The position numbers were made by a program, and so were the translations under genes. From contig NZ_BIFQ01000001.1 in assembly GCF_003967515.1 (NCBI RefSeq), positions 3,224,001 to 3,288,000 of the forward strand: a DNA stretch of 64,000 nt. The letters are read 5' to 3'. Below are positions 25,021 through 56,105 of the stretch, in pieces. The stretch is from Dictyobacter aurantiacus. Its GTDB lineage: Bacteria > Chloroflexota > Ktedonobacteria > Ktedonobacterales > Ktedonobacteraceae. Positions within the stretch are counted from its first letter, which is position 1, and the number at the start of each line of letters is the position of its first letter. The notes beneath the pieces were generated by a model. The model was given only the letters and a program-made list of their open reading frames with translations, was not told the DNA's origin and made no database searches.

Positions 25021-25257
25021 TAGGGGTACGTGCGCACCCCCGCACGCGCGTCCGCACTGATTTTTTATATGAGTGCATCGCGTGCGCATCTGCGCACGCG
25101 ATGCACTCATATAAAACTGACACGTGAGCACCGAAGGTGCGAGACCTCATGCAGGCCGCGCGTGTGGGGTGTGCAAGTGCTCCCACACGCGCGACCGCAT
25201 TGGTTTTTTATGTTAGGGCATGGGGGCGCGAAGGTGCCCCCATGCCCTAACATAAAA
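25021..25257 (+). repeat. Modular hairpin repeat, locus A (two units)
   Basis: Two units in tandem. Unit 1: GC box GCACGCGCGTCCGC, T-run, hairpin of 26-bp arms (25063-25116, arms start TTTTATATGAGTGCATCGCG), then the tail box GTGAGCACCGAAGGTGC. Unit 2: GC box CACACGCGCGACCGC, T-run, hairpin 25205-25256 with different arms (TGTTAGGGCATGGGGGCGC). The arms differ between the units but each is self-complementary. Located between the Fur-family gene and fdhD, where it may also act as a terminator. Confidence 0.8.
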
Positions 25258-25364
25258 TAGAAGGTTAGAATTATGGTACACTGGGGGCATAGCTATCCGT
25301 TAGGTACGATGGTTTTTTTCAATTGCTGGCCATGTGGTGCGCGATTTTGATGAGGAGCGGTTTT

Positions 25365-26228
25365 ATGACTCTTTTTCATAGCTGGCGTTCAGAGCTAGAT
25401 CCCGAACGCGTCATGGAAGTGCAGGTTCAGCACTGGAAGGAGGAAGCAGCTACATCCAGGGAGGAACATGTGACGGTCGAAGAACCGTTTGAAGTGCGTC
25501 TCGGGAATCAAAGCCTGGCTGTAATTATGCGTACTCCCGGCCACGATACTGAGCTGGCGCTTGGCTTTTTGCTATCCGAGGGCATCATCCAGGGTCCACA
25601 GGATGTGATAGGGGTGAAGAACGCGCAGGATGAGGATGGTCTACCGCTCGAAAACGTTGTAAGTGTTACCCTGCGTCGAACAACTTTTCAGGACGCTTTG
25701 CAGCCGCAGGCGCCCAAGTTCGAGCGTCACTTCGCCGTTTCCGCCAGCTGTGGGTTATGCGGAAAGAACAGTATTGCGGACTTGATGCTATCTGTCCCGG
25801 CTCTGGAAGCAGACGAGCTACGCATCTCCTTCGAGACATGCTATGGGTTGGCCGCGCGTTTAAATGCCGAGCAGGCTGTTTTCCGGCATACGGGAGGACT
25901 GCATGCCGCCGGCCTCTTTACCCACCAGGGTGAGTTGCTGGCGCTGCGTGAAGATATCGGACGGCACAACGCCGTCGACAAGCTGATCGGTTATGGCCTG
26001 GAAAAAGGGCTCTTCCCTTTTAAGGAGCATATACTCATGGTCAGCGGGCGCACTTCATTTGAGATTATTCAAAAGGCTCTGCTGGCACGCATCCCCTGCA
26101 TAGCGGCCATTTCCGCACCTTCCAGCATGGCGGTTGAACTGGCCGAGCGGGGTGGCATCACCCTGATCGGTTTTTTGCGTAACCGGTCCATGAATATATA
26201 TACCCATCCCGAACGCATCATTCATTGA
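25365..26228 (+). CDS. fdhD: Formate dehydrogenase accessory sulfurtransferase
   Basis: FdhD passes sulfur from a cysteine desulfurase to the molybdenum cofactor of formate dehydrogenase. About 287 residues. Motifs are VEEPFEVRLG, VIMRTPGHDTELALGFLLSEG, the redox pair in SASCGLCGKNS, FRHTGGLHAAGLFT, LREDIGRHNAVDKLIG and VSGRTSFEIIQKA. GAGGAGCGG precedes the ATG at 25365, so the earlier start at 25323 is unlikely. No formate dehydrogenase gene lies in the window; moaC at 18741 serves the same cofactor. Confidence 0.95.
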   Translation: MTLFHSWRSELDPERVMEVQVQHWKEEAATSREEHVTVEEPFEVRLGNQSLAVIMRTPGHDTELALGFLLSEGIIQGPQDVIGVKNAQDEDGLPLENVVSVTLRRTTFQDALQPQAPKFERHFAVSASCGLCGKNSIADLMLSVPALEADELRISFETCYGLAARLNAEQAVFRHTGGLHAAGLFTHQGELLALREDIGRHNAVDKLIGYGLEKGLFPFKEHILMVSGRTSFEIIQKALLARIPCIAAISAPSSMAVELAERGGITLIGFLRNRSMNIYTHPERIIH

Positions 26229-26253
26229 GCAAGCTATGCTACCAACAAAATGA

Positions 26254-26288
26254 GAGAAGCGGGCAGCCGATAAGGCTGCCCGCTTCTC
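26254..26288. terminator. Hairpin terminator between fdhD and the GH15 gene
   Basis: GAGAAGCGGGCAGCC and its perfect complement flank a GATAA loop, 26 bp after fdhD and 24 bp from the end of the convergent gene. Confidence 0.7.
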
Positions 26289-26312
26289 GTTAATTAACGA
26301 CAATGTACGGTG

Positions 26313-29300
26313 TCAGGGGATAACCACATCCTGTAGTACAACGGGATGTTTGGTATAGTCCAGTTCGTCAGACTGGCTGACTCCTGTCGGGGTGATGGTG
26401 TCCATGACTTTGGGCACCGTATTGGGATCAACCGTACAATGTGGATCGCTACTGGTAGTGGCACAGACGCCGAAGGAATACGCGCCCGGCGTGGCTGTAA
26501 AGGCGCGCGCCTGGTCCGGGCTGTATCCATCCTGCCCCGTCAGGGTTACGGTAAAGCCCCAGCCGGAGCCAGGAGTGCCAAAGGTAGCTTTCGGCACGCT
26601 AAAGGTGATATAGCGCGAAATCGCGTTAGCGCTGACCTGTACGGTCCCCAGTGACGTACCGTTTGCATCGATGTAACGCTGACCAAAGCCCTGTACCTCG
26701 ATGAGCTGGCTCCAGGCGGCTCCAGGCGCGATGGTATAGTTCCGTTGCGGATAGGATGCTGCCGTAGAGGTCTGGCTGGTCGCGGGATTATGCACATAGA
26801 CATCTACCAGCTGCGCGCCCAGTGGACTGCCGAAAGTTGGAGTGAGATCGCGGGTCTGCAGCTTGAAGATGATATTGGTGCCGTCATCATAGATGCGGAA
26901 GTCCTGGATATCATAGGCCCCGGCATGGAAGTCAGACGCGGTCGGGTAGGCGTAGTTGCCGGGACCGTTGTCGTCGTTGCTGGGATCGCTGGCATCATAG
27001 ACGAGCTTGCCAGGTGTGAAGTCGTAGACGACGGTGCGCTGATCGTGCGCGGTTGCCCCGCTCGGGCTGACCGCCACCGTATTCAGCACGGTTGTGCCGC
27101 CGCTAATCGGCAGCGAGGCGTTGAATGATCCGTCCGCCGCCACCTGCGCCTGCACGGTGCTGGTCTGATTCTGTTGATCAGTATTGGTCGCGGAAACGTA
27201 GACCGCGTTGCCCGGCGCGGTTTTGCCCGTAACGACAACGGGTGATGAACTCACTGACGAAAGGTTGGCCGGAGCTGCCACACTCAGTTGCGTTTGATCT
27301 ACCGGGTGGGTTACGTAGCGGTTGTAGGTATTCTGTGGCTGTTCGAGCAGCTTATTGGACAGGGTATCGTTGAACAGGCGCACATATGACGCGACAGCCC
27401 AGGTCAGTGGAGATGCGGAGCCATCGGGCTTGCCAGTCTCAAAGCCAATCGACGCAACGGTGGGATCGGTGCCATACGGAGACTGGGCCAGATCTGGCTG
27501 TTCCCAGATCTGCTCTGGCAGCAGACCCACTCCTGACGTGGATTTCTGCAGGGTATTCAGCAGCGAGACCGCTGTACCGATATCCCCGGCGGCCAGTTGA
27601 TACTCGCCACGTTCGTCTCCCAGGACCGGCCATGGATGGCCGCTACCTTTGCCGCTAGGCGCCCACGGATGTCCATCCTGATCTCCATCCCCATAGCCAT
27701 CGCCATTGTAGCGATACCAGCCGGGACCATTGGGGGTCTGTACCTTGATGGTCTTATCAACCACGGAAAGTGAATTTACCACATCTTTGTCGCTGGCCGA
27801 CAACTCGCCCAGGCGCACCAGGTCCAGGAAGCCCGCATCGATGACTGAGCGTTGATCCAGGGTTGGGCCACCATTGCCCAGGTTATAGGAGATGGCCGCG
27901 TTCGGATCACCCGTCTTCGAGAGCCGGATGAAGTAGGGCTGCGAAGAGAGCGGGCCATTGGTAGTTACGGTCCATTTTTTGATGGAGCGCTGCCAGTCAT
28001 CCGCCACGCCTAGCCAGAGGTTGGCGCTCTTCAGATCGTTGTTCTTGCGCGCGATATCGGCGGCGGCCACCAGTCCCGCAATCTCGGCGGAGATTGTCGA
28101 GGGAGAGTAGCCTCCCTGTTCCTCCCAGCGCTCCACGCCAAAGGAGGGGCCATGGCTGGCTACAAAATTGGCCGCGCGTTTGACATGGTTTTGATAGAGG
28201 TCGCTATCGGTCATTCCCATCTGATCAGCCATCAGGATGGGATAGCTATTCTCATCCAACTGGGTGTTGAACGAGTCGGGCGCGACCTTACCATTGAGCA
28301 GGCTATTGCGCGGGAATGAACCGTCCGCCTGCTGCTGGTGATAGAACAGGAAGTTGACCGCGTCACGGGCGGTCTCACGATCGCCATCGGTGAACAGGGC
28401 GGTCCAGGTCTCATAGAGGTCGCGTGCGAAGACCTCGCGGTATGAGCCGAAGTAGGTATTATTTGGATCGCCTGCTGACGTTGCCTGCCCCCATGGGGAG
28501 GCCAGGCCGGCTACCAGAGCACCGGGGAACGTTTTATCCTCTGATGCCTTCACGACGTTGACGCTGAGATAATATTCATTGAGCAGGCGCGCGAAATCGA
28601 TGCTGGATTGTGACTTCGCCGCGGGGAAGAGACGCCGCAGCGTCAACTTCGCGTCGTATTGCAGCCAGCCGGCGGTATACTGTGCCAGTACGGCATTGAA
28701 GTTCTGCCTCAAAGCGTCCTGTACTGTCTTTACGGCCTCCGCCTGTGACTGACCAAAGCCGAGTCCCAGGGTCAGATCGCCGCCATGCGAGATATCGGCC
28801 TGCGCTGTCTGCACCACGTTGCCATTGGAGGCCGTACTATACAGCGCACTGAGCGTATGCGAGGTATCGAGCTGCTGCAAACCATCGCTGTCCGTTCCCA
28901 CAAAGCCACTTGATACCCGGGTGAATGGAGACGAGGCATCCAGGGCGCTATAGACCGGAACCCCATAATCCCGATTGACCGCGTTAGTTTTGGTCTGGGT
29001 ATCGAACGCCACGGGCAGCGTATGTCCGTTTGATGTCGCCAGCGTCGCATTGTCCGCGCCGCCATTGCCGGAGCCGCCACCACCATTACCATTAATAGTG
29101 GGATCATAGCGCAAATAGAGCTTGTACGCCGAAAGCTGCCCCTTAAGAGGCTGAAAATGCAGCCGCATCAGCACAGCATTGCGCGCGGGATCAGTCACAT
29201 AGTCTGTCACCACCCGATACTTACCACTCTTCGCCGTTGAAGTTACTCGACAGGCCAGGGTGGGACCATTCAGTTCCTGCACCGTATAGGTCGTATCGCG

Positions 29301-29657
29301 GGTTTGAAGATCAGTAAATGTACTGCCATCGGTCACAATGAACTGCAGCGTTTTCACATTGGTATTGTCGATGGTTGGATAGTAGACGTCACTCAATACG
29401 CCATTAGCCAGGGTGAACCAGACTTTGGAAGTGGTATTTCTGGCCGTTCCGACGCAATCTTTGCGCGCCATATCAAAATACGAGAGATCGCCGGGACCAC
29501 CAGGAGCGGTGGCGGAACTGGCGGCACTCACCGATGACGAGGAGCGCAAGGCTTGAGCTAGAAGGAGTAGTAACATGCAGAACAGTAGAAATATACGCCA
29601 GGAAGTTGAGCGTGGATGCGACACCGCATCAAAGGTATCCTTACCGTGCTTACGCAT
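26313..29657 (-). CDS. Secreted GH15 glucodextranase/glucoamylase-like enzyme
   Basis: 1114 residues. A basic N-terminus and hydrophobic stretch (about residues 20-37) ending near VSAASS form a signal peptide. Residues about 53-330 form the beta-rich N domain of bacterial GH15 enzymes (DLSYFDMARKDCVGTARN). Residues about 350-800 form the alpha/alpha barrel. WEEQGGYSPS (Glu512/513, general acid) and LLPEQIWEQ (Glu715, general base) mark the active site. The remaining 300 residues contain an Ig-like domain (VVVTGKTAPGNAVYVS) and a C-terminal DOMON/glucodextranase-type binding domain. It should release glucose from alpha-glucans outside the cell. No partner genes are adjacent. Confidence 0.9.
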   Translation of the reverse strand: MRKHGKDTFDAVSHPRSTSWRIFLLFCMLLLLLAQALRSSSSVSAASSATAPGGPGDLSYFDMARKDCVGTARNTTSKVWFTLANGVLSDVYYPTIDNTNVKTLQFIVTDGSTFTDLQTRDTTYTVQELNGPTLACRVTSTAKSGKYRVVTDYVTDPARNAVLMRLHFQPLKGQLSAYKLYLRYDPTINGNGGGGSGNGGADNATLATSNGHTLPVAFDTQTKTNAVNRDYGVPVYSALDASSPFTRVSSGFVGTDSDGLQQLDTSHTLSALYSTASNGNVVQTAQADISHGGDLTLGLGFGQSQAEAVKTVQDALRQNFNAVLAQYTAGWLQYDAKLTLRRLFPAAKSQSSIDFARLLNEYYLSVNVVKASEDKTFPGALVAGLASPWGQATSAGDPNNTYFGSYREVFARDLYETWTALFTDGDRETARDAVNFLFYHQQQADGSFPRNSLLNGKVAPDSFNTQLDENSYPILMADQMGMTDSDLYQNHVKRAANFVASHGPSFGVERWEEQGGYSPSTISAEIAGLVAAADIARKNNDLKSANLWLGVADDWQRSIKKWTVTTNGPLSSQPYFIRLSKTGDPNAAISYNLGNGGPTLDQRSVIDAGFLDLVRLGELSASDKDVVNSLSVVDKTIKVQTPNGPGWYRYNGDGYGDGDQDGHPWAPSGKGSGHPWPVLGDERGEYQLAAGDIGTAVSLLNTLQKSTSGVGLLPEQIWEQPDLAQSPYGTDPTVASIGFETGKPDGSASPLTWAVASYVRLFNDTLSNKLLEQPQNTYNRYVTHPVDQTQLSVAAPANLSSVSSSPVVVTGKTAPGNAVYVSATNTDQQNQTSTVQAQVAADGSFNASLPISGGTTVLNTVAVSPSGATAHDQRTVVYDFTPGKLVYDASDPSNDDNGPGNYAYPTASDFHAGAYDIQDFRIYDDGTNIIFKLQTRDLTPTFGSPLGAQLVDVYVHNPATSQTSTAASYPQRNYTIAPGAAWSQLIEVQGFGQRYIDANGTSLGTVQVSANAISRYITFSVPKATFGTPGSGWGFTVTLTGQDGYSPDQARAFTATPGAYSFGVCATTSSDPHCTVDPNTVPKVMDTITPTGVSQSDELDYTKHPVVLQDVVIP

Positions 29658-29941
29658 ACATTTTTTGCCCTTTTTCTAAGTAGATGGACAACAAAAAGTT
29701 GCAATCTATAACGCCGGATTGCATTCAGCAGGGTCTTATAAAACATAAACCGAATAGAGAACACAATTCTTCAGAAGGTTAGATGACGGGAATGGCACCC
29801 CTGGGTCAGAAATATTACTATATACTATACAACATTTATTGTTACACACCATTCCATCGTGACGCGTATTTTTGGTAAATAAAGTGCCTGGTTGATAGAA
29901 GCTTGCAAAGGTCCTGCTAGACTTGGAAATTGAGCCTATGA

Positions 29942-29947
29942 TATAAT
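29942..29947 (+). promoter_or_regulatory. -10 box of mnmE, implying a leaderless transcript
   Basis: A perfect TATAAT ends only 7 bp before the mnmE ATG, so transcription should begin at or next to the start codon. The -35 region is weak (TAGACT at 29918). No Shine-Dalgarno sequence is present. Confidence 0.55.
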
Positions 29948-29954
29948 TTTCGGT

Positions 29955-31382
29955 ATGCATAACGATACAATAGCTGCTATCGCTACCCCACCCGGCGTAG
30001 GTGGGGTTGGCGTTATTCGTGTGAGTGGAAGTGAAGCGTTTGAACTGGTCTTACCCCTCTTTAAACGTCCCGCCGGTCAGAGTGAGCTTCCCCCATCACA
30101 TAAACTGACATTTGGTCATATTATTGATCCCCACACCCGGGAAGTGCTTGATGAGGTGCTGGTGGCCTTTATGCGTGCTCCGCATACCTATACGCGCGAG
30201 AACGTCGTAGAAATTCAAGGCCATGGCGGACCCTTAATTTTGCGTCGCATCTTGCACGCCGTACTGGCGCAGGGTGCGCGCATGGCGAATCCAGGTGAGT
30301 TCACCATGCGTGCCTTCCTCAATGGACGCCTGGACCTTGCCCAGGCGGAAGCTGTAATGGACCTGATCGGCTCCGAGACTGAAGCGGGTCAGCGCCTGGC
30401 TTTACAGCAGCTACGTGGACGCCTATCAGACCAGATTCAGCAGGCGCGCCAGGCGGTCCTGGGGGCAATTGCGCGCATTGAGGCCAGTATTGATTTTCCC
30501 GAGGACGATATTCCGACGCCACAGCCTGAAGACTTGCAGCCGTTGATCGCAGAAGCTTATCAGCTAGTATCCTCCTTGCTGGCAGGTTCCGAGCAGGGAC
30601 GGCTCTACCGCCAGGGGGTGCGCACAGCCATTATTGGTCGACCCAATGTTGGGAAATCCAGTATCCTGAACGCCTTTCTACGTACCGAGCGAGCGATTGT
30701 AACTCCTATTGCGGGTACCACGCGAGATACGGTTGAAGAAGCTGCCAACCTGCGTGGCGTGCCCTTGCACCTGATTGACACCGCCGGCATTACCCCGACT
30801 GATGATCCTGTTGAGCAAATCGGGGTACAGCGCAGCCGTGCCGCCGCTGAAACCGCGGATGTCGTCCTGCTGGTCTTTGACGGTTCCGAGCCCCTGACGG
30901 AGCAGGATCGCCTGGTATCAGCCGAGTTGCAGGCAATGGGCTTTGGCTTACAGGCGGCTAATAGCGACGGGACAATCAGTAAGCGCCCGGTACTACTTGT
31001 CATCAATAAGGCGGATCGTGATCAGAAGATCGAAACCTCAGAATTGAAAAAACTATGGCCGGAAGGGGTATTTGTCTCAACCTCCACGTTTTCAGACGCG
31101 GGTTTGCGGCCATTGGAAGATACCCTGGCGGATATCGTTCTGGCGGGTCGCATGCTTTATAGTGAAAGCGTACTGGTCACGAGCACACGTCATCAAGAGG
31201 CGCTACGCCGGGCTAATGGACATCTACAGGCATCGTTCCATTCATTGGATCAGCAATTGCCGCTTGACTTCGTCTCAATTGATCTGCGTGCCGCGTACGA
31301 TGCACTGGGAGAAGTAACCGGCGAAACCGCCAGTGAAGATCTCCTGGACAAAATTTTTAGTGAATTTTGCATTGGGAAATAA
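29955..31382 (+). CDS. mnmE: tRNA uridine-5-carboxymethylaminomethyl(34) synthesis GTPase
   Basis: With MnmG it modifies the wobble uridine of several tRNAs. 475 residues, complete. The N-terminal folate-binding domain starts DTIAAIATPPGVGGVGVIRVSG. The G domain has GRPNVGKSSILNA (G1), GTTRDT (G2), DTAGI (G3) and NKAD (G4). The C-terminal helical domain ends in the hallmark FCIGK, whose cysteine is conserved in the family. MnmG is not in the window. It is probably translated from a leaderless mRNA. Confidence 0.96.
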   Translation: MHNDTIAAIATPPGVGGVGVIRVSGSEAFELVLPLFKRPAGQSELPPSHKLTFGHIIDPHTREVLDEVLVAFMRAPHTYTRENVVEIQGHGGPLILRRILHAVLAQGARMANPGEFTMRAFLNGRLDLAQAEAVMDLIGSETEAGQRLALQQLRGRLSDQIQQARQAVLGAIARIEASIDFPEDDIPTPQPEDLQPLIAEAYQLVSSLLAGSEQGRLYRQGVRTAIIGRPNVGKSSILNAFLRTERAIVTPIAGTTRDTVEEAANLRGVPLHLIDTAGITPTDDPVEQIGVQRSRAAAETADVVLLVFDGSEPLTEQDRLVSAELQAMGFGLQAANSDGTISKRPVLLVINKADRDQKIETSELKKLWPEGVFVSTSTFSDAGLRPLEDTLADIVLAGRMLYSESVLVTSTRHQEALRRANGHLQASFHSLDQQLPLDFVSIDLRAAYDALGEVTGETASEDLLDKIFSEFCIGK

Positions 31383-31551
31383 AGCTATGAGGTATATCTA
31401 AAAATAGTGCTGGATCGCTTGATTGACGCTTCCCTTTACTACACCTGGTATCATACTTTTCTAATCCGCTGCTTATGAAAATACTAAAAGCGATCGATCA
31501 TTTCCGGCACATAGCAACTCTTTTTTAAGAGAGATAGGGGTAAATGACGAC

Positions 31552-32793
31552 GTGAATGTATTGAATAAGGTTTTAAATATATTCAAGAAGCCCGGTAGTG
31601 TGGTTTTGACTCTTGTGGTTATAGTTTCTATCATACTGGTGGCACTGTCCTACCGACTGGTGAGCGCCTCTCCTGAGCAGGCACAGGTTGTTGCCACACC
31701 TACTACCCGCATCCCAACTCCCACACCAACTCTCGCACCCACACCAACCGTTAAAGCTTCTCCAACCCCCGCACCCGTGATTTTGCCAGTCCAGGATCGT
31801 TCAAAAGTTTTAGGTATTGCCGGTGAGCCGGGCACCAATTATGACGGTATCCCCTGGATACGCTTGAGCCATCCCACCTGCGGTTGGGGTAATTTGCGTG
31901 GTGATGTGCTAAAGAACACCATTCAGGCGTATCATCGTAAAGGGATTCGTGTCCTGTTTTCTATTTGCCAGGCCAATAACGCCACTTTGCTTGATACGGC
32001 GAAATTTGATGATGCCGCCCATGCATATCCCGATGCCGTTCAGTGTGGTAATGAGGAGATGAAGCAAGACTCGTCGGTCTCCTTTTTATATACGCCACCT
32101 GATAAGTTTGCCAAATTTTATGATCTGTGTGAGAAAGCGATTCACAAGGTACGTGCCTCAACACCTGTTATACTTGGATCTCTGGATCCTCACGTGGCCG
32201 GTGCAGATTACCAGTTGCTGGTAAATCAGGTAAGCTACCTGGACCAGATGCAGACCGCTATGAATACCAGTGTGCATCCAGGAGGCAACTGGAGCTGGCG
32301 CAATCAGATCATCGGACTCATCGATAGCTGGCATAACGGATGGGGTGGATCTAACAACCTGGCTGGCCTTTTCGACTTCTGGTCACAGCAGTTTCAGATC
32401 GACAAAAATCAACTGGGTAATCACATGTGGGTCATTGAAGGGACCGGCTGCTTCAAGGGGTGTGGCATTAACGTCGATAGTTCGTATGAGCTGGCGGTCT
32501 CGCACATTCTGACATTAATCACAGATGTGCAGACAATCAAGCAATTGAAGGTACCATTCTTCTACTTCAGTGGCAAAGACTTTGTTGATCAGGGGGTAAC
32601 ATGGCCTATTGGTATCCTCGACATCAATGGTCATCCCAAGCCTATTCGCCAGGACATGGGGATGGGTGGTCGAACACTGACGCTCGCCTGTGGTAGTAAG
32701 AGTGTTACCGTGGCCGACCAGCTACAGCTTCTCTCCCGGCTCTACGCTGATTGTGCTCTTCCCTCAGACTACCTCAACACCTTAACGAGCTAG
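31552..32793 (+). CDS. Exported, membrane-anchored protein with possible glycosidase-like barrel
   Basis: 413 residues. A membrane helix (SVVLTLVVIVSIILVALSY) is followed by a Pro/Thr linker (TPTTRIPTPTPTLAPTPTV), placing the rest outside the cell. The outer domain includes GIAGEPGTNYDGIPWIRLSH, RKGIRVLFSICQAN, VILGSLDPHVAGADYQL and HMWVIEGTGCFKGCG. This order of strands and an acidic residue late in the fold recalls a TIM-barrel glycoside hydrolase, but I cannot name a family. Several cysteines (CGWG, CQAN, CFKGCG) may form disulfides. The start is a GTG at 31552 with GATAGGGG 11 bp upstream. It lies just before the rRNA operon. Confidence 0.7.
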   Translation: MNVLNKVLNIFKKPGSVVLTLVVIVSIILVALSYRLVSASPEQAQVVATPTTRIPTPTPTLAPTPTVKASPTPAPVILPVQDRSKVLGIAGEPGTNYDGIPWIRLSHPTCGWGNLRGDVLKNTIQAYHRKGIRVLFSICQANNATLLDTAKFDDAAHAYPDAVQCGNEEMKQDSSVSFLYTPPDKFAKFYDLCEKAIHKVRASTPVILGSLDPHVAGADYQLLVNQVSYLDQMQTAMNTSVHPGGNWSWRNQIIGLIDSWHNGWGGSNNLAGLFDFWSQQFQIDKNQLGNHMWVIEGTGCFKGCGINVDSSYELAVSHILTLITDVQTIKQLKVPFFYFSGKDFVDQGVTWPIGILDINGHPKPIRQDMGMGGRTLTLACGSKSVTVADQLQLLSRLYADCALPSDYLNTLTS

Positions 32794-32808
32794 CATGACC
32801 TGAATAAA

Positions 32809-32873
32809 GATAGCACACAGTGGGAGGCGCGGAAGGGCGGTCAGCCCCTCCGCGCCTCCCACTGTGTGCTATC
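32809..32873. terminator. Long hairpin isolating the rRNA operon
   Basis: GATAGCACACAGTGGGAGGC and onwards, 25-bp perfect arms, loop of about 15 bases. It ends the upstream gene before the rRNA promoters. Confidence 0.75.
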
Positions 32874-32940
32874 CCCTGTATAGAGGATAGCAATTTTCGC
32901 CACGAAATAAAAAACCTGGTCGAAAATCGGGCAAAAAACC

Positions 32941-32970
32941 TTGACAAGCTCTGACTTGATATGTTAATAT
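32941..32970 (+). promoter_or_regulatory. rRNA operon promoter P1
   Basis: TTGACA (32941-32946), 18 bp, TAATAT (32965-32970), about 440 bp before the 16S gene. Confidence 0.65.
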
Positions 32971-33143
32971 CATTGAGCTGTCGAAAAAACAGTATCCATT
33001 ACTCGAGTCACAGTAAAGTGACATCCTCAGGGATCTTAAATTCCCCGCAGTGAAGATATTCGATATGTAGTATTTGCTTCGAATGTTTGAACGAAGGTCG
33101 GAAAAAGAAATTTGGGTCAGGCGAATTCTCGTTGAGAAAAGCC

Positions 33144-33172
33144 TTGACAAATCCCGAGCAGTATGCGATACT
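33144..33172 (+). promoter_or_regulatory. rRNA operon promoter P2
   Basis: TTGACA (33144-33149), 17 bp, GATACT (33167-33172). It shares the CCTTGACA context with P1, as in duplicated rRNA promoters. Confidence 0.7.
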
Positions 33173-33212
33173 ACGATGGCTACGGTGATCCTTCGAGAAA
33201 GGTCATCGGGTA

Positions 33213-33227
33213 CCTTGACAACTGAAG
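33213..33227 (+). promoter_or_regulatory. boxA-like antitermination motif in the rRNA leader
   Basis: CCTTGACAACTGAAG here matches CCTGAACAACTGAAG at 35065-35079 in the 16S-23S spacer. Repetition before both rRNA genes is the arrangement expected of Nus-factor boxA sites. Confidence 0.5.
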
Positions 33228-44326: not shown

Positions 44327-44463
44327 ACAAATCCAGTTTTTTCTGTTCTTTCTTGGCTCCGAATTGTCTTACTTTATGCCTCTGTATTGTACAACACTTC
44401 AGCTGAGAATGAAAACTTCTTAAAGAATGTATCTTACTCCCGTCATTGTGGGGCTACTCACGC

Positions 44464-44806
44464 GCCCCCACACGCGCGTCCGCTACGCGGCCGCGCTGGT
44501 TATTTTGTGCTGGTGCATCGGGGGCGCATCCGCGCCCCCGATGCACCCATAGAAAATAGACTTGTGAGTACTGCAGGTGCAAAAGCTCAGGCAATGCTTA
44601 CGAGTGCCTATTTTCTATGGGTGCATGAGGGGCGCGGATGCGCCCCCGATACACCAGCAAAAATAGACTTGTGAGTACTGCAGGTGCAAAAGCTCAGGCA
44701 ATCTTGCGAGTGTCTATTTTCTATGGGTGCATGAGGGGCGCATCCGCGCCCCTCATGCACCCATAGAAAAAAACAGCGCGGCCGCGTAGCGGACGCGCGT
44801 GCGGGA
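44464..44806. repeat. Modular hairpin repeat, locus B (composite with inverted ends)
   Basis: Inverted ends 44470-44498 (ACACGCGCGTCCGCTACGCG onwards) and 44774-44802 match over 29 bp. Between them lie three hairpins of the type GGGTGCATSGGGGCGC / GCGCCCCSATGCACCC. They are separated by two copies of a 43-bp segment (44553-44595 and 44660-44702) containing CTTGTGAGTACTGCAGGTGC. The repeat period is 107 bp. It lies between the divergently transcribed cyclase and DUF402 genes. ORFs through it are shadows of the repeat. Confidence 0.85.
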
Positions 44807-44907
44807 GGAGTCAAACACCATCAAAAAATTGATGTTTTGAGTTCTGTATAACATCAAATACTTTTGAACCTCTTGTTTGTAAGGGTAGAGGCTGGCACAT
44901 TTTCTAC

Positions 44908-45957: not shown

Positions 45958-46350
45958 CGCAAAGTCTGTATAGAAGAGCTGGTACAACGCAACATGAGAC
46001 ATCCCAAATTTTAGGGATGAACTTGTGAAAGAAGCGAGCAGTTCTCCATTTTTGAAGGAGAACTGCTCGCTTCTCTTCTCTTGCAGAACAACGTGCTTTC
46101 CCCGTTTGGCTCGCTGAAAAGCACCACTGTGCCAAAAAACGGAAAAAGAGAAAGGAGCTGGTCAACCGACTTTCCACTCCCACAGCATCCCAGCGGCTTC
46201 CACAGGGCCTAGGGGTATGCTCTTTTCGCACGCATTCGCATCCTCTGTTGGCAAGACGTGTTGTACCCGATGAACACCGGACACACGCCCACATGGTCAG
46301 CCGATGCCGACCAGAGCGTCTCTCGTCACGTGGGGAACCTCCACACCGCC

Positions 46351-47822: not shown

Positions 47823-48062
47823 CTTTTTACAAACCCGACCTTAAAATTCGGGATGTCTCATGTTGCTATATCTTCTATACAGGACGGCTTGAAATGTTAG
47901 ATTACATGGAACTTACAACGGCGATGGGGGGATAGACGTACTATTATTAGCAGAAAATGCCTCTGTCGATCGGGTATGGTGAGAGTATGTAGAGATGCTG
48001 CCGCATACGGTGTGTTATCTGCCATTCTAGTGGTACAATATTGATATTATAAGAGCAAATTG

Positions 48063-48827: not shown

Positions 48828-48890
48828 CCTGATGCTGCTCATGGCGGGCCTTTCTATCTGACAGTGTCGATGGTGCGAAAGGAGTTTTTC

Positions 48891-49385
48891 GTGAAGATTG
48901 ATGATCTGGTGTTTAGCCGACGAACACGACAAAACCATGCCCTGGAGCATGCTACTTTTACCATCCTGGGTACTATGGATCCATCGTTAAGCGCCAGCGC
49001 GCGCTCAAACTCGGACGGTTTTATTATCTTTGGTGACGTCGATCTGGGCTTGCTGAGGCGTGCCCTGGATGAGGCTCTGAGGCGCTTGCAGGCCGGCGAG
49101 GCCGAGCTGGCGATTCATCCTAACTGTGGCACCAACCTGGCGGTAGGCGTTTCTATGGTGACCATTGGCACCTTGCTGGGGATGGCCTCAAGCAATAGCC
49201 GTACCCGCGTTGCCTCGGCCGCCGCCTCTTCTGTGGCCGGCTGGATGGCCGCCCGGCCGCTGGGTGAATACGTCCAGAAGCACTTTACCACGCTGCCAGA
49301 CCTGACGGGCGTACACGTTACCAGTATCACACGCCGCAAAGTGTTTGGCTTTACCTTTGTTGATGTTCGTACAGTGCAGGAGTAG
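48891..49385 (+). CDS. DUF6391-like protein
   Basis: About 164 residues. The segment RRTRQNHALEHATFTILG is the recognisable N-terminal pattern of the family I know as DUF6391 (moderate certainty). LAIHPNCGTNLAVGVSMVTIGTLLGM gives a hydrophobic, possibly membrane-associated middle, and the end reads RKVFGFTFVDVRT. The start is probably the GTG at 48891, since AAAGGAG lies 7 bp upstream; the frame is open back to 48864. It sits between yggS and yggT, with only 2 bp to yggT. Function unknown. Confidence 0.7.
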   Translation: MKIDDLVFSRRTRQNHALEHATFTILGTMDPSLSASARSNSDGFIIFGDVDLGLLRRALDEALRRLQAGEAELAIHPNCGTNLAVGVSMVTIGTLLGMASSNSRTRVASAAASSVAGWMAARPLGEYVQKHFTTLPDLTGVHVTSITRRKVFGFTFVDVRTVQE

Positions 49386-49387
49386 CT

Positions 49388-49675
49388 ATGTATACGCCAC
49401 CACCATTGTCGGTGCCTATCGTTTCCATTTTGATTGGTTATGGAATCAATATTTTGATCCTGGCCATGTTTGTTCGTGCTATCGCCTCCTGGTTTCAAAT
49501 GGATGAGCGTTTTGCCGTCATCCGTTTTCTCGCCCGGATGACGGATCCCTTTATCGTTCCGGTTCGGCGCGTGGTGGGCCAGATAGGCTTTTTGGATCTC
49601 TCATTCCTGATAGCATGGTTCGGGTTGTTCATCATTCGATTATTACTGTTGCAATCGTTGCCGCCTGGCTGGTAA
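49388..49675 (+). CDS. YggT-family membrane protein
   Basis: 95 residues with two membrane segments (VSILIGYGINILILAMFVRA and LSFLIAWFGLFIIRLLLLQS) around RFLARMTDPFIVPVRRVVG, the typical YggT loop with DP and P-RR residues. Homologues are linked to osmotic tolerance and, in plants and cyanobacteria, to thylakoid and division functions. Translationally close-packed within the cluster (2 bp before, 4 bp after). Confidence 0.9.
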   Translation: MYTPPPLSVPIVSILIGYGINILILAMFVRAIASWFQMDERFAVIRFLARMTDPFIVPVRRVVGQIGFLDLSFLIAWFGLFIIRLLLLQSLPPGW

Positions 49676-49679
49676 CGCC

Positions 49680-49940
49680 ATGCTGATATCGGTACGCGTC
49701 ATCCCGCGCAGCACGCGCAATCAATTGGAATGGGATGGCGAGGTGTTGAAGGCGCGTCTGACCGCGCCCCCTGTAGACGGGGCCGCCAATCAGGCCCTGA
49801 TCGCCTTGCTGGCCGATCAATTGGCTATCCCCAGGCGCGCCATCAGCATTGTACGAGGAACGACCAGCCGTCAAAAAGTGGTGGATATCGAACAGTTAAC
49901 GCCTGCAGAATTAGAACAGAGACTGACTCAGACACACTAG
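49680..49940 (+). CDS. DUF167 (YggU) family protein
   Basis: 86 residues. SVRVIPRSTRNQLEW, LKARLTAPPVDGAANQALIALLA and IVRGTTSRQKVVDI are the family hallmarks. Function unknown, though it keeps company with yggS and yggT across bacteria. Last gene of the cluster, followed by modular repeat C. Confidence 0.9.
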   Translation: MLISVRVIPRSTRNQLEWDGEVLKARLTAPPVDGAANQALIALLADQLAIPRRAISIVRGTTSRQKVVDIEQLTPAELEQRLTQTH

Positions 49941-49984
49941 CGTGTCACAAAGCTGTCTTACTCTCATGATCATCGACTGTGGCC

Positions 49985-50104
49985 TATAGGAGCTTTAGCA
50001 CCTGCGTCTATGGTAAGGTGGTGCAACAGGGGCGCATCCACGCCCCTGTTGCACCACCTTACAAAACCCCAGCGCGACCGCGAACGCGGACGCCCGTGCG
50101 GGGG
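49985..50104 (-). repeat. Modular hairpin repeat, locus C
   Basis: Reads in the minus direction: GC box CGCACGGGCGTCCGCG, CGCTGGGGTTTTG, a hairpin with 22-bp arms (50013-50062, GTAAGGTGGTGCAACAGGGG), and a shortened tail box GCAGGTGCTAAAGCTC. It lies between the convergent yggU and receptor-kinase genes. Confidence 0.75.
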
Positions 50105-50133
50105 CTATCACCTTTCCCCAGGGTGATGAGGGT

Positions 50134-50175
50134 CTGGCACAATAACAGCTATCTGATAGCTGGTTATTGTGCCAG
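50134..50175. terminator. Hairpin terminator overlapping the kinase stop codon
   Basis: CTGGCACAATAAC / GTTATTGTGCCAG outer stem with an inner AGCTA/TAGCT stem. The minus-strand stop codon of the kinase gene (50164-50166) lies inside the right arm. Confidence 0.6.
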
Positions 50176-53022
50176 GAACTGTCCTGTTCCCAGGTTCTCC
50201 TCCATATGGATACGCCCCATGTCATCGAAGTACAGGACGACGATAGCTTTGTTGATTGGATCCCCATCTGGGCCGAACGTGATCTGCCCACTTACTCCCT
50301 GCAGATTTTTTACGCTGGCCAGGGCCTGCTGTAAAGCTGTGGATTTCAGGGTAGTGCCTCCGTTGAGCGCCTGTTTGGAGCCGGTGAGCAGGGCCGTCAT
50401 CGCGTCGTAGGAAAGGATGACGTTATTGCTCGGCCGTCGAAAACCGTAGACACCGCTCGGATTCGAACTGCTATAGTCGTCAGAATAATCCTTGAAGAAG
50501 GCTGGCTTTTTATTGCCCTGCTTCAGAATATCCCATTCATCTGGATAGGCGAAGGCCGTGAAGTGCATGCGATGCAGTTCCCCCTTCACGCTACTCGGAT
50601 AGCCCGCCAGCTCATAGAGCGCGTCACCGCCCAGGATCTGGGTTTTGGCCAGGGCCGGATGTTTGGGCAGTTCCCCCAGCAGGGTTGCCACATCATTGGA
50701 GTAGCCAGCAAAGTAGATCAGACCGGGGTCGGTCTGCAACTGCTGCACGCCAGCGATGATCGAGGCCGGATCGTTCCTGTGATAGGTAATGATCCTGGTC
50801 TGCCCACTAAAGGCGCCTTTGAAGTCGTTACCCAGGCTCTGGCTGTATGAATCACCATCATCCAGGAAGATTGCGGCCTGTTGTGCCTGAAGCTTGCTCT
50901 TCGCATAGGCCGCGGCAACCGTGGCCTCGCTTTTATTCGACGGTGCCACGCGGAAGAAGTAGGACGAAAGCCCGGTCAGACTATCACTGGAGGCCGTCGC
51001 CGAGACCATAGGAATGTGGGCGGCGGTCAGGATATTGGAGGCGTTTTCCGCGTGCGAGCTCAAGGACCAGCCCATGACGCCAACGATGGTCGGATCTTTG
51101 GCGGCCGCCTGCACTATCTGGTGGGCTACGGTAGCGGCATTGCCCGAATCGCTGCCCGTATTGGCGATTATCAGGCGCACTTTGACGTTGCCCAATGTAT
51201 TCTGCTGGTTCCATTCATGCTGGGCCACGTAGGCGCCCTGCAGATTGTCATAACCGATGCCAGCGTTGGGTCCGGTGAGGACGGTGCCCACCACAAACGT
51301 GATATATGGCTGTCCCGAAGAGAGGATACGCATATTCTCCTGATAAATATGCGCCTCCGCGTCACTGGAATCCTGACCAAGGGCGTCGTTCCAGAAGGTG
51401 TTCGCCTGGCTGGTGTTGCCCTGCGCCATCGCCTGTACCGCCTGATTTTTGTAGCTGGCGTTCTTGCGCGAGGTATCAAAGATCGATTTGCCGTCGCTCA
51501 GACCAATGGACTCGCCCTTGATGGTCGTGACACTGATCGGGTCGGCGGAGGGCTGATTCCCTTTGGCAGATGTCTGGCCGGTATGGCTGATCGGTTGAGC
51601 ACCTCCTCCAGGGGGTGTCACTGGATGTCCCAGGTTTGGCAGCACAAAGATGAGGGCGCCGATAATGATCAGGACCACAATTAGCAGCAGAAAGCTCCAC
51701 AGGATATAGTTATTGTCGTTCTTCTTTTGTTGTTGCTGCGGGGCGAATGTCCCCATCTGCTGCTGTTGATAGCCACCGCGATTGCGGGGTCGCTGGCCCT
51801 GATTTGGGCCCGGACCATATGGACCCCCGCCATAGGGATTATTGGCTGGCTGGCCTGGCTGGCTGCGGGCGGGCGCGCCTGAAGCACTATATCCGCCAGC
51901 ATAGGCGGAACCCGCGCTGTTGGCGGCTGGTTTGGACGCGACCGAGGGCGTTGATATAGGACCCGAAGTATTGAGAATGTACGAACTGGTATCAATGGCC
52001 GCGTGGAAGCGTTGCTGCAGAAGGGCCTCGATCTCTTGCTTCATCTGGCGAGCATTTTGATAGCGCTTGTTGATATCCAGGGTCAGCGCCTTCTCCAGGA
52101 TGCGCTCAAGCTCTGGTGAGAGTTGTTTATTCAGGGTCCGCACCGGTGGATAGTTGAACGGAGGATAATTGCGTGGATCGCGATTGGTGACCAGGTGATG
52201 CAGGGTGGCGGCCAACGCGTAGAGATCCGAGCGCGCGTCGGCGTTGCCCTGATACTGCTCGGGCGGCGCATAGCCGGGTGTCCCCAGCGCGGAGGTCTGT
52301 TTGCGCTTAGCGTTGCGCGCCTCGTCGGCGCGGGCGATGCCGAAGTCCACCAGTCGGGCCCGTTTGTCGCGACTGCTGATAATAATATTGGCAGGCTTGA
52401 TATCGCGGTGCACGATCGGTGGTTTCTGCTCACTCAGGTATTCCAGGATATCCAGGACCTGAGCAATATAGGTCAACGCCTCCTGCTCGGGCATGGGCTT
52501 GTTAACCCGTTCCATATAGTCTTCTAGATTTTCACCCGGTGCGTATTCCTGCACCATGTAGTAGCGCGAGCCCTCTTGAAAACTATCGGTCACAGTCGGG
52601 ATAAGTGGATGATCCAGGTTGGCGAGCGTCTCTACCTCGCGCTCAAAGTTACGTACATCTTCTTGTCGTTGTGTTGGATCATTTTCGTCTGAGATAAGTT
52701 CTTTGATGACCACGCGCTTATTTGAGACGCGTGAGTCCCTTGCCAGCACGGCGGCGCCCATACCGCCCTGGCCCAGCACCTTCTCGACGATATAGCGGCC
52801 GTTTTGTAGTTTTGCGTTGGGTGTCAGGGTACTTGAAGCACCGTGAACGCCGCCGCCTGTGCCACCACCTGCTGCCTGTGTTGTTGTGGCCGTTGGATAG
52901 CTGGCACCAGGCTGGCTAACCACGGTCTGAGTGCTGGAGGCTGGTGTATCCAGGTAACCACCACAATTGGCACAAAAGGTTTCACCGGCCGGATTATTCG
53001 TACCGCAAAAAGGACATTTCAT
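50164..53022 (-). CDS. Receptor serine/threonine kinase with extracellular type-1 solute-binding domain
   Basis: 952 residues. A zinc ribbon (Cys3, Cys6, Cys17, Cys20) comes first. A Pkn-type kinase follows at about 77-340: GQGGMGAAVLA, VVIKEL (Lys107), HRDIKPANII (Asp207), VDFGIARA (Asp226) and GTPGYAPPEQY. A Gly/Pro/Gln linker leads to a membrane helix at about 439-463. The outer part (about 573-950) has the fold pattern of type-1 periplasmic-binding proteins (Leu/Ile/Val-binding-like): GPNAGIGYDNLQGAYVAQHE, IVGVMGWSLSS, IPMVSATASSD, and GDALYELAGYPS. I infer that ligand binding outside controls kinase activity inside. Tandem paralogue upstream. Confidence 0.92.
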   Translation of the reverse strand: MKCPFCGTNNPAGETFCANCGGYLDTPASSTQTVVSQPGASYPTATTTQAAGGGTGGGVHGASSTLTPNAKLQNGRYIVEKVLGQGGMGAAVLARDSRVSNKRVVIKELISDENDPTQRQEDVRNFEREVETLANLDHPLIPTVTDSFQEGSRYYMVQEYAPGENLEDYMERVNKPMPEQEALTYIAQVLDILEYLSEQKPPIVHRDIKPANIIISSRDKRARLVDFGIARADEARNAKRKQTSALGTPGYAPPEQYQGNADARSDLYALAATLHHLVTNRDPRNYPPFNYPPVRTLNKQLSPELERILEKALTLDINKRYQNARQMKQEIEALLQQRFHAAIDTSSYILNTSGPISTPSVASKPAANSAGSAYAGGYSASGAPARSQPGQPANNPYGGGPYGPGPNQGQRPRNRGGYQQQQMGTFAPQQQQKKNDNNYILWSFLLLIVVLIIIGALIFVLPNLGHPVTPPGGGAQPISHTGQTSAKGNQPSADPISVTTIKGESIGLSDGKSIFDTSRKNASYKNQAVQAMAQGNTSQANTFWNDALGQDSSDAEAHIYQENMRILSSGQPYITFVVGTVLTGPNAGIGYDNLQGAYVAQHEWNQQNTLGNVKVRLIIANTGSDSGNAATVAHQIVQAAAKDPTIVGVMGWSLSSHAENASNILTAAHIPMVSATASSDSLTGLSSYFFRVAPSNKSEATVAAAYAKSKLQAQQAAIFLDDGDSYSQSLGNDFKGAFSGQTRIITYHRNDPASIIAGVQQLQTDPGLIYFAGYSNDVATLLGELPKHPALAKTQILGGDALYELAGYPSSVKGELHRMHFTAFAYPDEWDILKQGNKKPAFFKDYSDDYSSSNPSGVYGFRRPSNNVILSYDAMTALLTGSKQALNGGTTLKSTALQQALASVKNLQGVSGQITFGPDGDPINKAIVVLYFDDMGRIHMEENLGTGQFLAQ

Positions 53023-53103
53023 AGTTGTGCCTATTATTCCAATCTCATCGCTATAGAGCGATTATCTAGAGATACCATTATATTAGTAATAGCGCAATTC
53101 CGC

Positions 53104-55917
53104 TCACGATTTCAAAAATCGGCCCAGGTAGGCGGGTTCCATGTGGATATGCCCGTTCTGGTCGACATAGAGGACGAGAATTGCTTTATCAACTGGATCT
53201 CCATTCGCTCCAATGCTGATCTGCCCACTTACCCCTTGAATAGCATTAGCACCATTGAGCTTGAGCAATGCCAGATGTAAATCCTCAGGGGTAGGATTCT
53301 GCTTTCCAGTGTTCAATGCAATATTGTACGCACTTAGCACTGTAACAGTTGCATCATAGGAGAGAATAACATCATTATCCGCGCGCGTAAAGCCATATGA
53401 GCCGCCCGGGTGTTGTCCATCGGGATTGAACGCCGACGAATATTCGTTGAAAAAGGCGGGCTTCTGACTGCTGTATTTCAGTACATCCCACTCATCTGGA
53501 TAGGCAAAAGATGTAAAGCGCAGGCGGTTGAAATTGGCGCGCGCGCTACTCTGGTAGCCTCCCAGTTCATATAGTGCGTCGCCTCCCATGACTGGCAGCG
53601 TGCCTGGAGGCAGATCGCTCAGCAGCGTGCTGACATCGGTCGCGTAGCCGGAAAAGTAGATCAGGTCCGTCGCTTTGCTACTACTATCATGCATAGCGCT
53701 GGCGATGGTGTCAGCTTTGCCAATGGTATAGTTTTCGGTAATGACCTTGTTTTTATCCGTCCCTTGATAGCGTTGCATGAAATCCTGCGCCAGGCTCTGG
53801 CTGTATGTATCCTGTGGATCGTAGAAGACGGTGACGGTCTTCGCGTGCAGAACCGTCTCAGCATAGATGGCGGCCTGGGTGCCCTGCTGCTTGTTGGGTG
53901 GTACGACACGGAAAAAATAGGGCGATGCATTGCTGAGCGCGTCGCTGGATGAAGTCTGCGAGATCATGGGAATATGATTCTGGCTCAAGATCTGGATAGC
54001 GGTCTGTGTGCGTCCGCTGTATGGCCAGCCCATTACGCCTGCAAAGGTGGGATCAGATTGCTGCAGTTTGACGATCTGCTGCGCGACCGTCGCGACCGTG
54101 GAGGTCTGACTGCCGCTATTGGCGATCAGCAGGCGCACCAGCGTTCCGTTGCGTAGTTTGGCTCCATCGTTGTACTCTTTCTGCGCGATGTAGGCCCCCT
54201 GAAGATCGTCGCGCCCCACCTGGATCTGGTCGCCGCTGAGCATAGTTGCGACCACTATCGTCACATAGGGGTTACCGGATTGTATGACATGGATGTCCTC
54301 TTTATAAATGAGGGCTTCCGCGTCATTGGAGTTCTTGCTGGTCGCATCATTTAAGAGTGAGATGGCCGCATTGACATTGTTTTTATCTTGCTTGAGCTGC
54401 TGAGCCGCCTGTGTCTTGAGCGAGCCGTCCTCCAGCGTGGTATCGAAGGCCGTCGTCCCGTCGCTGATCCCGATCGGTTCTCCCTTGATCATGGTCACGC
54501 TGATGGGGGCGCTGCCCTTGCTTGCTGTCAGCCATGAGTAGCCGCCAAAGATGCCGCCTGCGATGAGCACCAGCAGCAGCACCGCGATCAGCACGATCAG
54601 CCCACCGCGTCTCTTTTTCCGAGGCTGCGCCTGTTGTGGCTGATAGGGGAAGCCGGGCTGAGATATTTGTTGGTTGGAGAAGCCAGGCTGCGATATCGGC
54701 TGATTCGAAAATGCTGGCAATGGCTGAACCGGTGTAAATGATGCTCCCGCGTTGCCCTGTCCAGCGGCTGAAAGCGTTGGTGGCGGTGGGGGCATCAGCG
54801 TGGGCGGAGTAGCGCTGTTGCCTATCCCCGGTTGTGATACCCCTGATGGGGTAGATGGCAGCGTCGCATCCGCTGCAGAATTGGCGATCTGTGTTTGCGC
54901 ACTGCTAATGGCGCGCATCGGACCCGAGGTCCCCAGCGTATAGCTGTCGATGTTGCCCGAGATTCCGAAGCGCTGCCGCAGAATCGTGTCGATCTCGTTT
55001 TTCATCGCCGTGGCGCTCTGATAGCGCTGATTGATATCATTATTTAACGCTTTGGTCAGGACCCTCTCGATGTCCGGCGATAGCTGCGGATTCAGTGAGC
55101 GTGCCGGTGGATAATAAAAGGGCGGATGATTGCGTGGGTCACGGTTGGTCAGCAAGTGGTGCAGCGTGGCGGCCAGAGCATAGAGATCTGAGCGTGGATC
55201 GGCGTTGCCCTGATACTGCTCGGGTGGCGCGTAGCCGGGCGTGCCCAGCGCGGAGGTCTGTTTGCGCTGGGCGTTGCGCGCCTCGTCGGCGCGGGCGATG
55301 CCAAAGTCCACCAGGTGCGCGCGCCGATCGCGCGTACCAATAATGATATTGGCCGGCTTGATATCGCGGTGCACGATAGGCGGCATCTGCTGCGAGAGAT
55401 AGTCGAGCACATCGAGCATTTCGGAAGCACAGATCAACGCTTCACGCTCATTCATTGGTTGATTGGCGCGATTCATGCGCTCCTCTAGATTTTCACCATC
55501 CACATATTCCTGGACCATAAAGTAGCGCGTACCCTCCTGGAAGTGGTCCGTCACGTTGGGTACCAGCGGATGGTCGATGTGGGCCAGCGTGGCAACCTCG
55601 CGCTTGAAGTTGCGCACATCCTCTAAACGGCGATTCTGATCCACATTATCTGAAATCAACTCTTTGATGACCACTGATTTGCCATCGAGACGAATGTCGG
55701 TGGCCAGTAGGGCGGCTCCCATGCCTCCCTGCCCCAGGATCTTCTTGATGACGTAGCGCCCACCCTGCAGGCGTGAGCCTGGACTGAGGGAGCTTGCAAC
55801 AGCGCTGTTACTATTTGAAGGTGTAGAGGAGTCCGGTGACTCATTTACCCGGTTCCCACAATTTCCGCAAAAGCGAACGTTATCTCGCAGTTCCGCGCCG
55901 CAGTAAGGACATGTCAT
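53104..55917 (-). CDS. Receptor serine/threonine kinase with extracellular type-1 solute-binding domain (paralogue)
   Basis: 937 residues with the same plan as its neighbour: zinc ribbon (CPYCGAELRDNVRFCGNCG), kinase with GQGGMGAALLA, VVIKEL (Lys85), HRDIKPANII (Asp185) and VDFGIARA (Asp204). A Pro/Gln-rich linker precedes a membrane helix (LIVLIAVLLLVLIAGGIFGG). The outer binding domain has VGRDDLQGAYIAQKEYNDG, FAGVMGWPYSG, IPMISQTSSSD and GGDALYELGGYQS. The kinase halves are more alike than the linkers and binding halves, as expected for a duplication followed by ligand divergence. Starts 81 bp upstream of the other kinase gene on the same strand. Confidence 0.92.
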   Translation of the reverse strand: MTCPYCGAELRDNVRFCGNCGNRVNESPDSSTPSNSNSAVASSLSPGSRLQGGRYVIKKILGQGGMGAALLATDIRLDGKSVVIKELISDNVDQNRRLEDVRNFKREVATLAHIDHPLVPNVTDHFQEGTRYFMVQEYVDGENLEERMNRANQPMNEREALICASEMLDVLDYLSQQMPPIVHRDIKPANIIIGTRDRRAHLVDFGIARADEARNAQRKQTSALGTPGYAPPEQYQGNADPRSDLYALAATLHHLLTNRDPRNHPPFYYPPARSLNPQLSPDIERVLTKALNNDINQRYQSATAMKNEIDTILRQRFGISGNIDSYTLGTSGPMRAISSAQTQIANSAADATLPSTPSGVSQPGIGNSATPPTLMPPPPPTLSAAGQGNAGASFTPVQPLPAFSNQPISQPGFSNQQISQPGFPYQPQQAQPRKKRRGGLIVLIAVLLLVLIAGGIFGGYSWLTASKGSAPISVTMIKGEPIGISDGTTAFDTTLEDGSLKTQAAQQLKQDKNNVNAAISLLNDATSKNSNDAEALIYKEDIHVIQSGNPYVTIVVATMLSGDQIQVGRDDLQGAYIAQKEYNDGAKLRNGTLVRLLIANSGSQTSTVATVAQQIVKLQQSDPTFAGVMGWPYSGRTQTAIQILSQNHIPMISQTSSSDALSNASPYFFRVVPPNKQQGTQAAIYAETVLHAKTVTVFYDPQDTYSQSLAQDFMQRYQGTDKNKVITENYTIGKADTIASAMHDSSSKATDLIYFSGYATDVSTLLSDLPPGTLPVMGGDALYELGGYQSSARANFNRLRFTSFAYPDEWDVLKYSSQKPAFFNEYSSAFNPDGQHPGGSYGFTRADNDVILSYDATVTVLSAYNIALNTGKQNPTPEDLHLALLKLNGANAIQGVSGQISIGANGDPVDKAILVLYVDQNGHIHMEPAYLGRFLKS

Positions 55918-55990
55918 CTTTCTGCCTGCCTTTTAAGACATAACTATGAATGGGTCTTACACTCGTCTTACAGTGGGACGTGATAGTTCT

Positions 55991-56105
55991 CGCACAGGCG
56001 CCCGCGTGCGCGGCCGCCCTCGTTTTTTATTGGTGCATGGGGGGCATCCGCGCCCCCATGCACCAACAACACCATGACCTGTGAGCACCGCAGGTGATGA
56101 ACTTG
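55991..56105 (+). repeat. Modular hairpin repeat, locus D
   Basis: GC box GCACAGGCGCCCGCGTGCGC, CGTTTTTTAT, hairpin 56030-56066 (TTGGTGCATGGGGG arms), tail box CTGTGAGCACCGCAGGTG. Between the kinase start and the rhodanese gene end. The rest of the 55918-56380 spacer is AT-rich; CCTGCCAGAACAGGGTCTGTGCAGG at about 56312 may help end the rhodanese transcript. Confidence 0.75.

Follow-up and report, generated by a model that had tools for sequence, protein, structure and literature searches.

Long hairpins with covarying arms in Dictyobacter aurantiacus are probably passengers of an IS5-family MITE that keep their pairing through template switching

BOX and ERIC elements are modular repeats in which the number of hairpin units varies, and within the IS5 family of insertion sequences (IS) the IS1031 and IS427 groups target TNA. 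REP sequences bear GTAG or CGTC tags, as described in the available portion of PMC3733652. Template switching with correction of arms in E. coli and with inversion of spacers in yeast is described in the accessible parts of PMC7202029 and PMC8604942, respectively, while excerpts of PMC8794818 present template switching as a source of compensatory changes in RNA genes and associate it with G-C pairs outnumbering C-G and T-A pairs outnumbering A-T. Here, we describe a family of dispersed repeats in D. aurantiacus whose hairpin arms covary from copy to copy.

The original prediction singled out four loci, A to D, in the window (the whole 64,000-nt stretch of DNA analysed), each carrying a GC box, a T-run, a long hairpin and a tail box in one common order. 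Direct reading and a repeat listing placed the hairpins, GC boxes and T-runs at the predicted positions. Locus C, however, lies in the opposite orientation to the other three loci and carries a truncated tail box, the full box having no match there even at ≤3 mismatches. Outside the modules lie terminal inverted repeats that had been overlooked. Locus A holds two hairpins and one tail box, all on the plus strand: a left terminal inverted repeat with two mismatches to GARNGTGTCTGACTYCCGTCA (24997..25017), a GC box identical to CACGCGCGTCCGC (25043..25055), a first hairpin with 26-bp arms and a 2-nt loop (25063..25116; ssDNA fold of -31.6 kcal/mol, z -10.5), and the tail box, a small hairpin with a GNA triloop and no mismatch to the degenerate consensus (25125..25142). 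A second, partial copy follows, consisting of a GC box with one mismatch (25186..25198) and a hairpin with 22-bp arms and an 8-nt loop (25206..25257) that lacks a tail box.

Locus B is a rearranged compound of three hairpins, two tail boxes and two inverted GC ends, its multiple hairpin units recalling BOX and ERIC. On the plus strand it runs from a left terminal inverted repeat with two mismatches (44425..44445) and an exact GC box (44471..44483) through a hairpin with a 16-bp perfect core (44512..44547), a tail box with one mismatch (44565..44582), an imperfect second hairpin (44611..44664) within a 107-bp tandem duplication and a second tail box, also with one mismatch (44672..44689), to a third hairpin with 25-bp perfect arms (44717..44770). 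It closes on the minus strand with an exact inverted GC box (44789..44801) and an inverted left terminal repeat with six mismatches (44802..44822). Locus C, on the minus strand, comprises a right terminal repeat with four mismatches (49949..49974), the truncated tail box as read directly (49998..50005), a hairpin with 22-bp perfect arms (50013..50062) and a GC box with one mismatch (50086..50098). Locus D is a nearly complete plus-strand copy, with a left terminal repeat with five mismatches (55948..55968), a GC box region of 3-mismatch matches (55993..56017), a hairpin whose 17-bp arms are 94% complementary (56027..56069), a match to the tail-box pattern (56082..56096) and a right terminal repeat with six mismatches (56096..56121). 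Terminal repeats are accordingly decayed (4-6 mismatches) at C, D and the inverted end of B, and direct reading found no matching triplet in the flanks of D. At an orthologous locus of Ktedonobacter racemifer (L389 vs L358 and L387) an extra hairpin lies between hairpin and box, so that units may multiply in place, as at locus B.

Comparison of 30 loci revealed conserved sequence further out than the modules first recognised. In full, the element reads left terminal repeat (GA(A/G)NGTGTCTGACTYCCGTCA), GC mini-hairpin, T-run, long hairpin, tail box (KTGAGCRCCGNAGGYGCGAA) and right terminal repeat, with the long hairpin ending in an A-run before the box. The 85 de-duplicated elements we collected, of which the window's genome supplied 59 and D. 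arantiisoli 26, have both ends recognisable at ≤4 mismatches per end; copies with either end unrecognised were not entered. Their core-to-core length is 196 bp in 29 and 195 bp in 21 cases, and since four further nucleotides at each end complete the repeats, a full copy spans ~204 bp. At one offset, 44 of the 85 are flanked by identical 3-bp sequences, of which 32 are TNA (TAA 10, TTA 8, TGA 8, TCA 6; others 12), as compared with 0-3 identical flanks at the other eleven offsets and a mean of 7.6 (maximum 20) in 2000 shuffles of flank partners; identical triplets are lacking in the other 41 elements. The terminal repeats vary among Dictyobacter species, in many copies on both sides together. 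As a side observation, TGTACAAAGTCGAG, probably another dispersed repeat, recurs beside MITE ends in two species (in the flanks of five sampled loci) and lies ≤60 bp from a TIR-like site in 3/5 and 7/11 occurrences.

Candidate mobilisers with similar ends are present in the genus. D. kobayashii harbors five copies of a 1077-bp IS5-family element; in the two copies examined, the ends GAATGTGTCTGACTCCCA/GAATGTGTCTTACTCCCA match those of the MITE and the duplications are TGA and TTT. The window's genome contains a related IS, 1095 bp long, which has GAGAGTGTCAGAGTTGCG as its ends and is flanked by TGA on each side; the IS5-family transposase it encodes (NF033580, PF13340, PF01609) is split over two frames and would need frameshifting. 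The ends of this IS agree with the MITE consensus at ~17/22 positions by eye, a looser fit than that of the D. kobayashii IS, and for a second copy the end-finding script returned no pair. Pairing of matching MITE ends around genes in the sampled DNA yielded one true IS amid many chance pairs, and no pair of matching ends surrounded any of the six IS5_3 matches of D. arantiisoli. Judged from these sequences, the mobiliser of the MITE is likely an IS5-type transposase. The original prediction had left room for a non-autonomous element moved by an unseen transposase, and this option gains ground from the terminal repeats, the 3-bp duplications and the IS5-family IS with matching ends, which argue for an IS5-type MITE and not for a RAYT/REP system.

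Further copies, on which the original prediction depended, abound, and loci A to D belong to a large family. In the window's genome (8.88 Mb, two contigs) the tail box has 260 matches at ≤2 mismatches versus 10 for a reversed control, and the right end 132 versus 0. An upstream hairpin (net ≥11 pairs, ≤110 nt) accompanies 150 of 222 box-like matches (de-duplicated, ≤3 mismatches, sampled DNA) and is absent in 72. At a single threshold the box occurs in all five Dictyobacter genomes (206, 136, 22, 4 and 9 copies), the genus genomes compared including D. arantiisoli, D. kobayashii and D. vulcani, and in 11 of 47 genomes across Ktedonobacterales. A GC-rich form is found in K. racemifer (154 matches), K. 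robiniae (115) and Ktedonobacter sp. SOSP1-85 (119), where the long hairpin directly adjoins the box and reading revealed no terminal repeats; mobility of this box-hairpin unit is unsupported, most absences resembling deletions. The box alone was rejected as a family marker: its 20-mer occurs, among the matches listed, without an upstream hairpin in Proteobacteria, Methanoculleus and others, and is not diagnostic because of its presence without the hairpin in unrelated bacteria and archaea. In several Proteobacteria the 20-nt GNA-loop hairpin has a shared context (four sampled loci and similar ones) that resembles an IncP-type transfer origin. We also noted, at six sampled loci, a subfamily whose arms measure 34-40 bp and whose tail box resembles TGAGCGCCGTAGGCGCGT. 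A hammerhead-like or group II intron identity of the tail box was dropped after inspection by eye only, and a search confined to open-licence papers listed none on the element.

We consider it probable that loci A to D are copies or remnants of this IS5-family MITE and that their passenger hairpin is kept by template switching. An IS5-type transposase, whose activity we infer from sequence, would act on the terminal repeats and duplicate 3 bp, usually TNA. The long hairpin would be a passenger of the MITE, and whenever the DNA is replicated one arm could template the other, repeatedly over time (quasipalindrome template switching), thereby fixing a change in both arms and sometimes flipping the loop. 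The arms would stay complementary because one templates the other, and the covariation would be explained without any RNA function. The polymerase mechanism of such arm copying is put forward by analogy with the E. coli and yeast work.

Coupled arm changes and in-place loop inversion were both found at orthologous Ktedonobacter hairpins. Rates were measured on these hairpins, which lack terminal repeats, and not on the MITE itself, in 28 non-independent pairwise comparisons at 17 loci of three species; same-genome comparisons, two multi-copy loci and duplicates were dropped, flanks were anchored on the hairpin centre, and hairpins were counted only if they agreed in length parity, had 60% 5'-arm identity and diverged by <15% in one or both flanks. 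Where every mutation in an arm is reverted or else copied, the expected rate of paired change is that of neutral divergence. The 679 pairs contained 35 compensated (5.2%) and nine single changes, and the flanks diverged at 120/2583 positions (4.6%). Boxed hairpins contributed 22 compensated and eight single changes in 425 pairs (flanks 68/1527), and unboxed ones 13 and one in 254 pairs (flanks 52/1056). Independent double hits would have produced 0.49 events versus the 35 compensated ones, and coinciding changes numbered 25 at the true partner versus 0-3 at partners slid by 1-3 positions. Loops were inverted at 10 of the 14 informative loci among these 17, eight of the ten within one mismatch, with exact inversions of a 9-nt loop of K. 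racemifer (C10:1041833), of a 10-nt core (1360806) and at L361/L386 and L363/L373. Maintenance is not universal, for at some orthologous loci all or half of the hairpin is gone.

The Dictyobacter copies bear out the earlier statement that the arms differ between copies yet remain self-complementary. Among the 1024 inner cells of 64 copies with a 4-nt loop from the window's genome, 98.2% are Watson-Crick and 301 are double-changed; neither value was attained in any of 500 shuffles, and sliding the partner by 1-3 columns leaves only 27-37% Watson-Crick. Over all genomes, 168 of 219 hairpins are perfect in the scored part, this set leaving out hairpins below net 13 pairs or >14 nt from the box. 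Loops of the MITE are found in either orientation (ATCC 15/GGAT 10, ATTC 11/GAAT 1, ATCA 5/TGAT 5, TTTC 4/GAAA 2), and so are those of D. arantiisoli (TTC 8/GAA 2, ATA 4/TAT 3). Boxed hairpins show more G-C than C-G pairs (2115 vs 476) and more T-A than A-T pairs (1607 vs 966), an excess that shared descent could explain; unboxed hairpins show the G-C excess (1.84, 1.75) but no T-A excess (1.04, 0.66).

Long hairpins also occur apart from the box. Under a stricter test (net 17 pairs, loop ≤10), the window contains 12 long hairpins, four in loci A to C and eight elsewhere, the latter without tail box and with net 18-37 pairs (1103-1169, 1961-2038, 10630-10699, 24288-24343, 32809-32873, 46030-46074, 57386-57452 and 62031-62077). 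At net ≥17 pairs, 0.8 Mb of the window's genome (L089-L128) yielded 93 hairpins (116 per Mb), 24 of them with box, and 0.4 Mb of K. racemifer 28 (70 per Mb), seven with box; none was detected in 150 kb of E. coli K-12 or in a small sample of other Ktedonobacterales (45 kb, 14 loci), and mononucleotide shuffles of three of the four scanned sets gave 0. Extrapolation would bring the genome total to about a thousand. With genes taken as the longest non-overlapping ORFs of at least 100 codons, uncurated, box-less hairpins of the window's genome fall in 22 convergent versus four divergent gaps (p 6e-8), divergent gaps holding twice the bases of convergent ones, and they start at a median of 25 nt past the stop codon (81 gene-end/hairpin pairs). 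T content after their stems is 2.27 of 8 versus 2.22 on the other side. From sequence and position, these box-less hairpins are possibly U-less terminators or mRNA 3'-end hairpins.

Strong covariation of the arms is also what a regulatory or terminator RNA module would display, its hairpin being kept by selection on the transcript through compensatory mutation. The location of box-less long hairpins mainly at gene 3' ends of the D. aurantiacus genome fits such a module, as does a T-run after one GC box of locus B on the minus strand (14 terminator-like sites vs 11.8 expected). However, no T enrichment follows the box-less stems, direct reading found no T-run directly after the long stems of loci A to D, and a small sample of boxed copies (+- 6, -+ 5, ++ 3, -- 3, with seven inside ORF calls) gives no clear sign of a bias to 3' ends. 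The earlier terminator idea suits the separate box-less class better than the boxed family. Nor did the window hold any Rfam 15 match over gathering score beyond rRNA and tRNA. The mismatch spectrum, in which those shared by descent were entered more than once, comprises 69 mismatches in the 5233 pairs of the 219 hairpins (G·T 22, A·C 31, other 16; balance p 0.27), with no G·U excess in the box-strand sense, as opposed to a tRNA control (n=19) with G·U 12, A·C 0 and other 3 (Fisher p 0.0002 vs hairpins). The 64-copy subset has A·C over G·T (13 vs 3, p 0.02), that is, G·U on the opposite strand, which favours an RNA; the opposite-strand reading is nonetheless likewise distinct from tRNA (p 0.005). 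The mismatch test is two-sided, and weak selection on an opposite-strand transcript may persist. Neither paired change near flank divergence nor inverted loops are expected of selected RNA, and with the missing G·T excess they undercut, for this family, the reading of the kept structure as a functional RNA. Together, mismatch spectrum, paired-change rate and inverted loops suggest DNA-level copying between arms over RNA selection, and we regard the RNA module as improbable.

The palindromic tail box with its conserved flanks could alternatively be a REP that a RAYT (TnpA-REP), or some other HUH transposase, mobilises in single-stranded form. RAYT genes, named earlier as a possible mobiliser, do exist, with four matches in the window's genome, one of them confirmed (NF047646, 86 bits), but they do not track the box: 29 loci held only 12 scattered box matches (≤3 mismatches), in eight loci, not arranged as repeats flanking the RAYT gene, and no RAYT match was found in four of four Ktedonobacter genomes, three of which hold 115-154 boxes. 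The element has no terminal GTAG or CGTC tag, GTAG occurring in some copies inside the loop only, and displays terminal repeats and 3-bp duplications instead, leaving a REP origin very unlikely. At a D. arantiisoli RAYT locus (L325), two sequences that contain GTAGGTGCGT and resemble each other flank the RAYT gene, near 1217 and 2227; they are a candidate REP pair and differ from the tail box. A further possibility is that perfect pairing is restored solely when the element transposes, by fold-back synthesis, and decays afterwards. This predicts perfect young copies with differing arms, as found in D. arantiisoli (26/28 perfect), yet paired changes and loop flips are found between orthologous loci and also in hairpins without box or terminal repeats; the orthologous loci contradict it unless they were re-inserted, and we give it hardly any credence.

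Template switching within MITE-borne and box-less hairpins would have implications beyond these loci. We lean slightly towards the wider view that in the long perfect hairpins of Dictyobacter and Ktedonobacter templated correction is so fast that paired substitutions approach the neutral rate and loop orientation nears equilibrium. If so, they amount to a replicated experiment of nature, with strong "RNA covariation" arising without RNA selection, and to a bacterial system with many loci for measuring template switching. Compensatory base changes are usually the best evidence for a conserved RNA structure, and here they are abundant in a transposon passenger; the main import would thus be a warning for covariation-based RNA discovery, to which two cheap checks could be applied, namely A·C versus G·U mismatches and loop inversion. 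A lack of the typical SbcCD hairpin nuclease perhaps permits such long palindromes. In this regard, one of 47 Ktedonobacterales genomes passes the cut-off for SbcD (TIGR00619), 42 have sub-threshold matches only and four none, compared with 8/14 control genomes passing; this pattern is order-wide, whereas long hairpins were seen in two genera only.

Set beside the described systems, the present element resembles IS5-family MITEs in being short and non-coding, with terminal inverted repeats, short duplications, many copies and an IS with matching ends, and differs from them in its long perfect hairpin and two mini-hairpins, whose sequences vary in concert. With REP/BIME and their RAYT, as portrayed in the accessible sections of PMC3733652, it shares the dispersed extragenic palindromes, and the 3'-end bias reported there resembles that of the box-less hairpins here. 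Most stems in those sections measure 6-9 bp, much shorter than the arms described here, and our element lacks the GTAG/CGTC tag, the RAYT link and a G·T excess while having terminal repeats and duplications. The hairpins subject to template switching in the available portions of PMC8794818, PMC8604942 and PMC7202029 are alike in arm homogenisation, multi-base compensatory change and loop or spacer inversion; relative to what those portions describe, the present case stands apart by its 20-40 bp arms, its many loci in one bacterial order and the inversion of loops at 10/14 informative orthologous loci.
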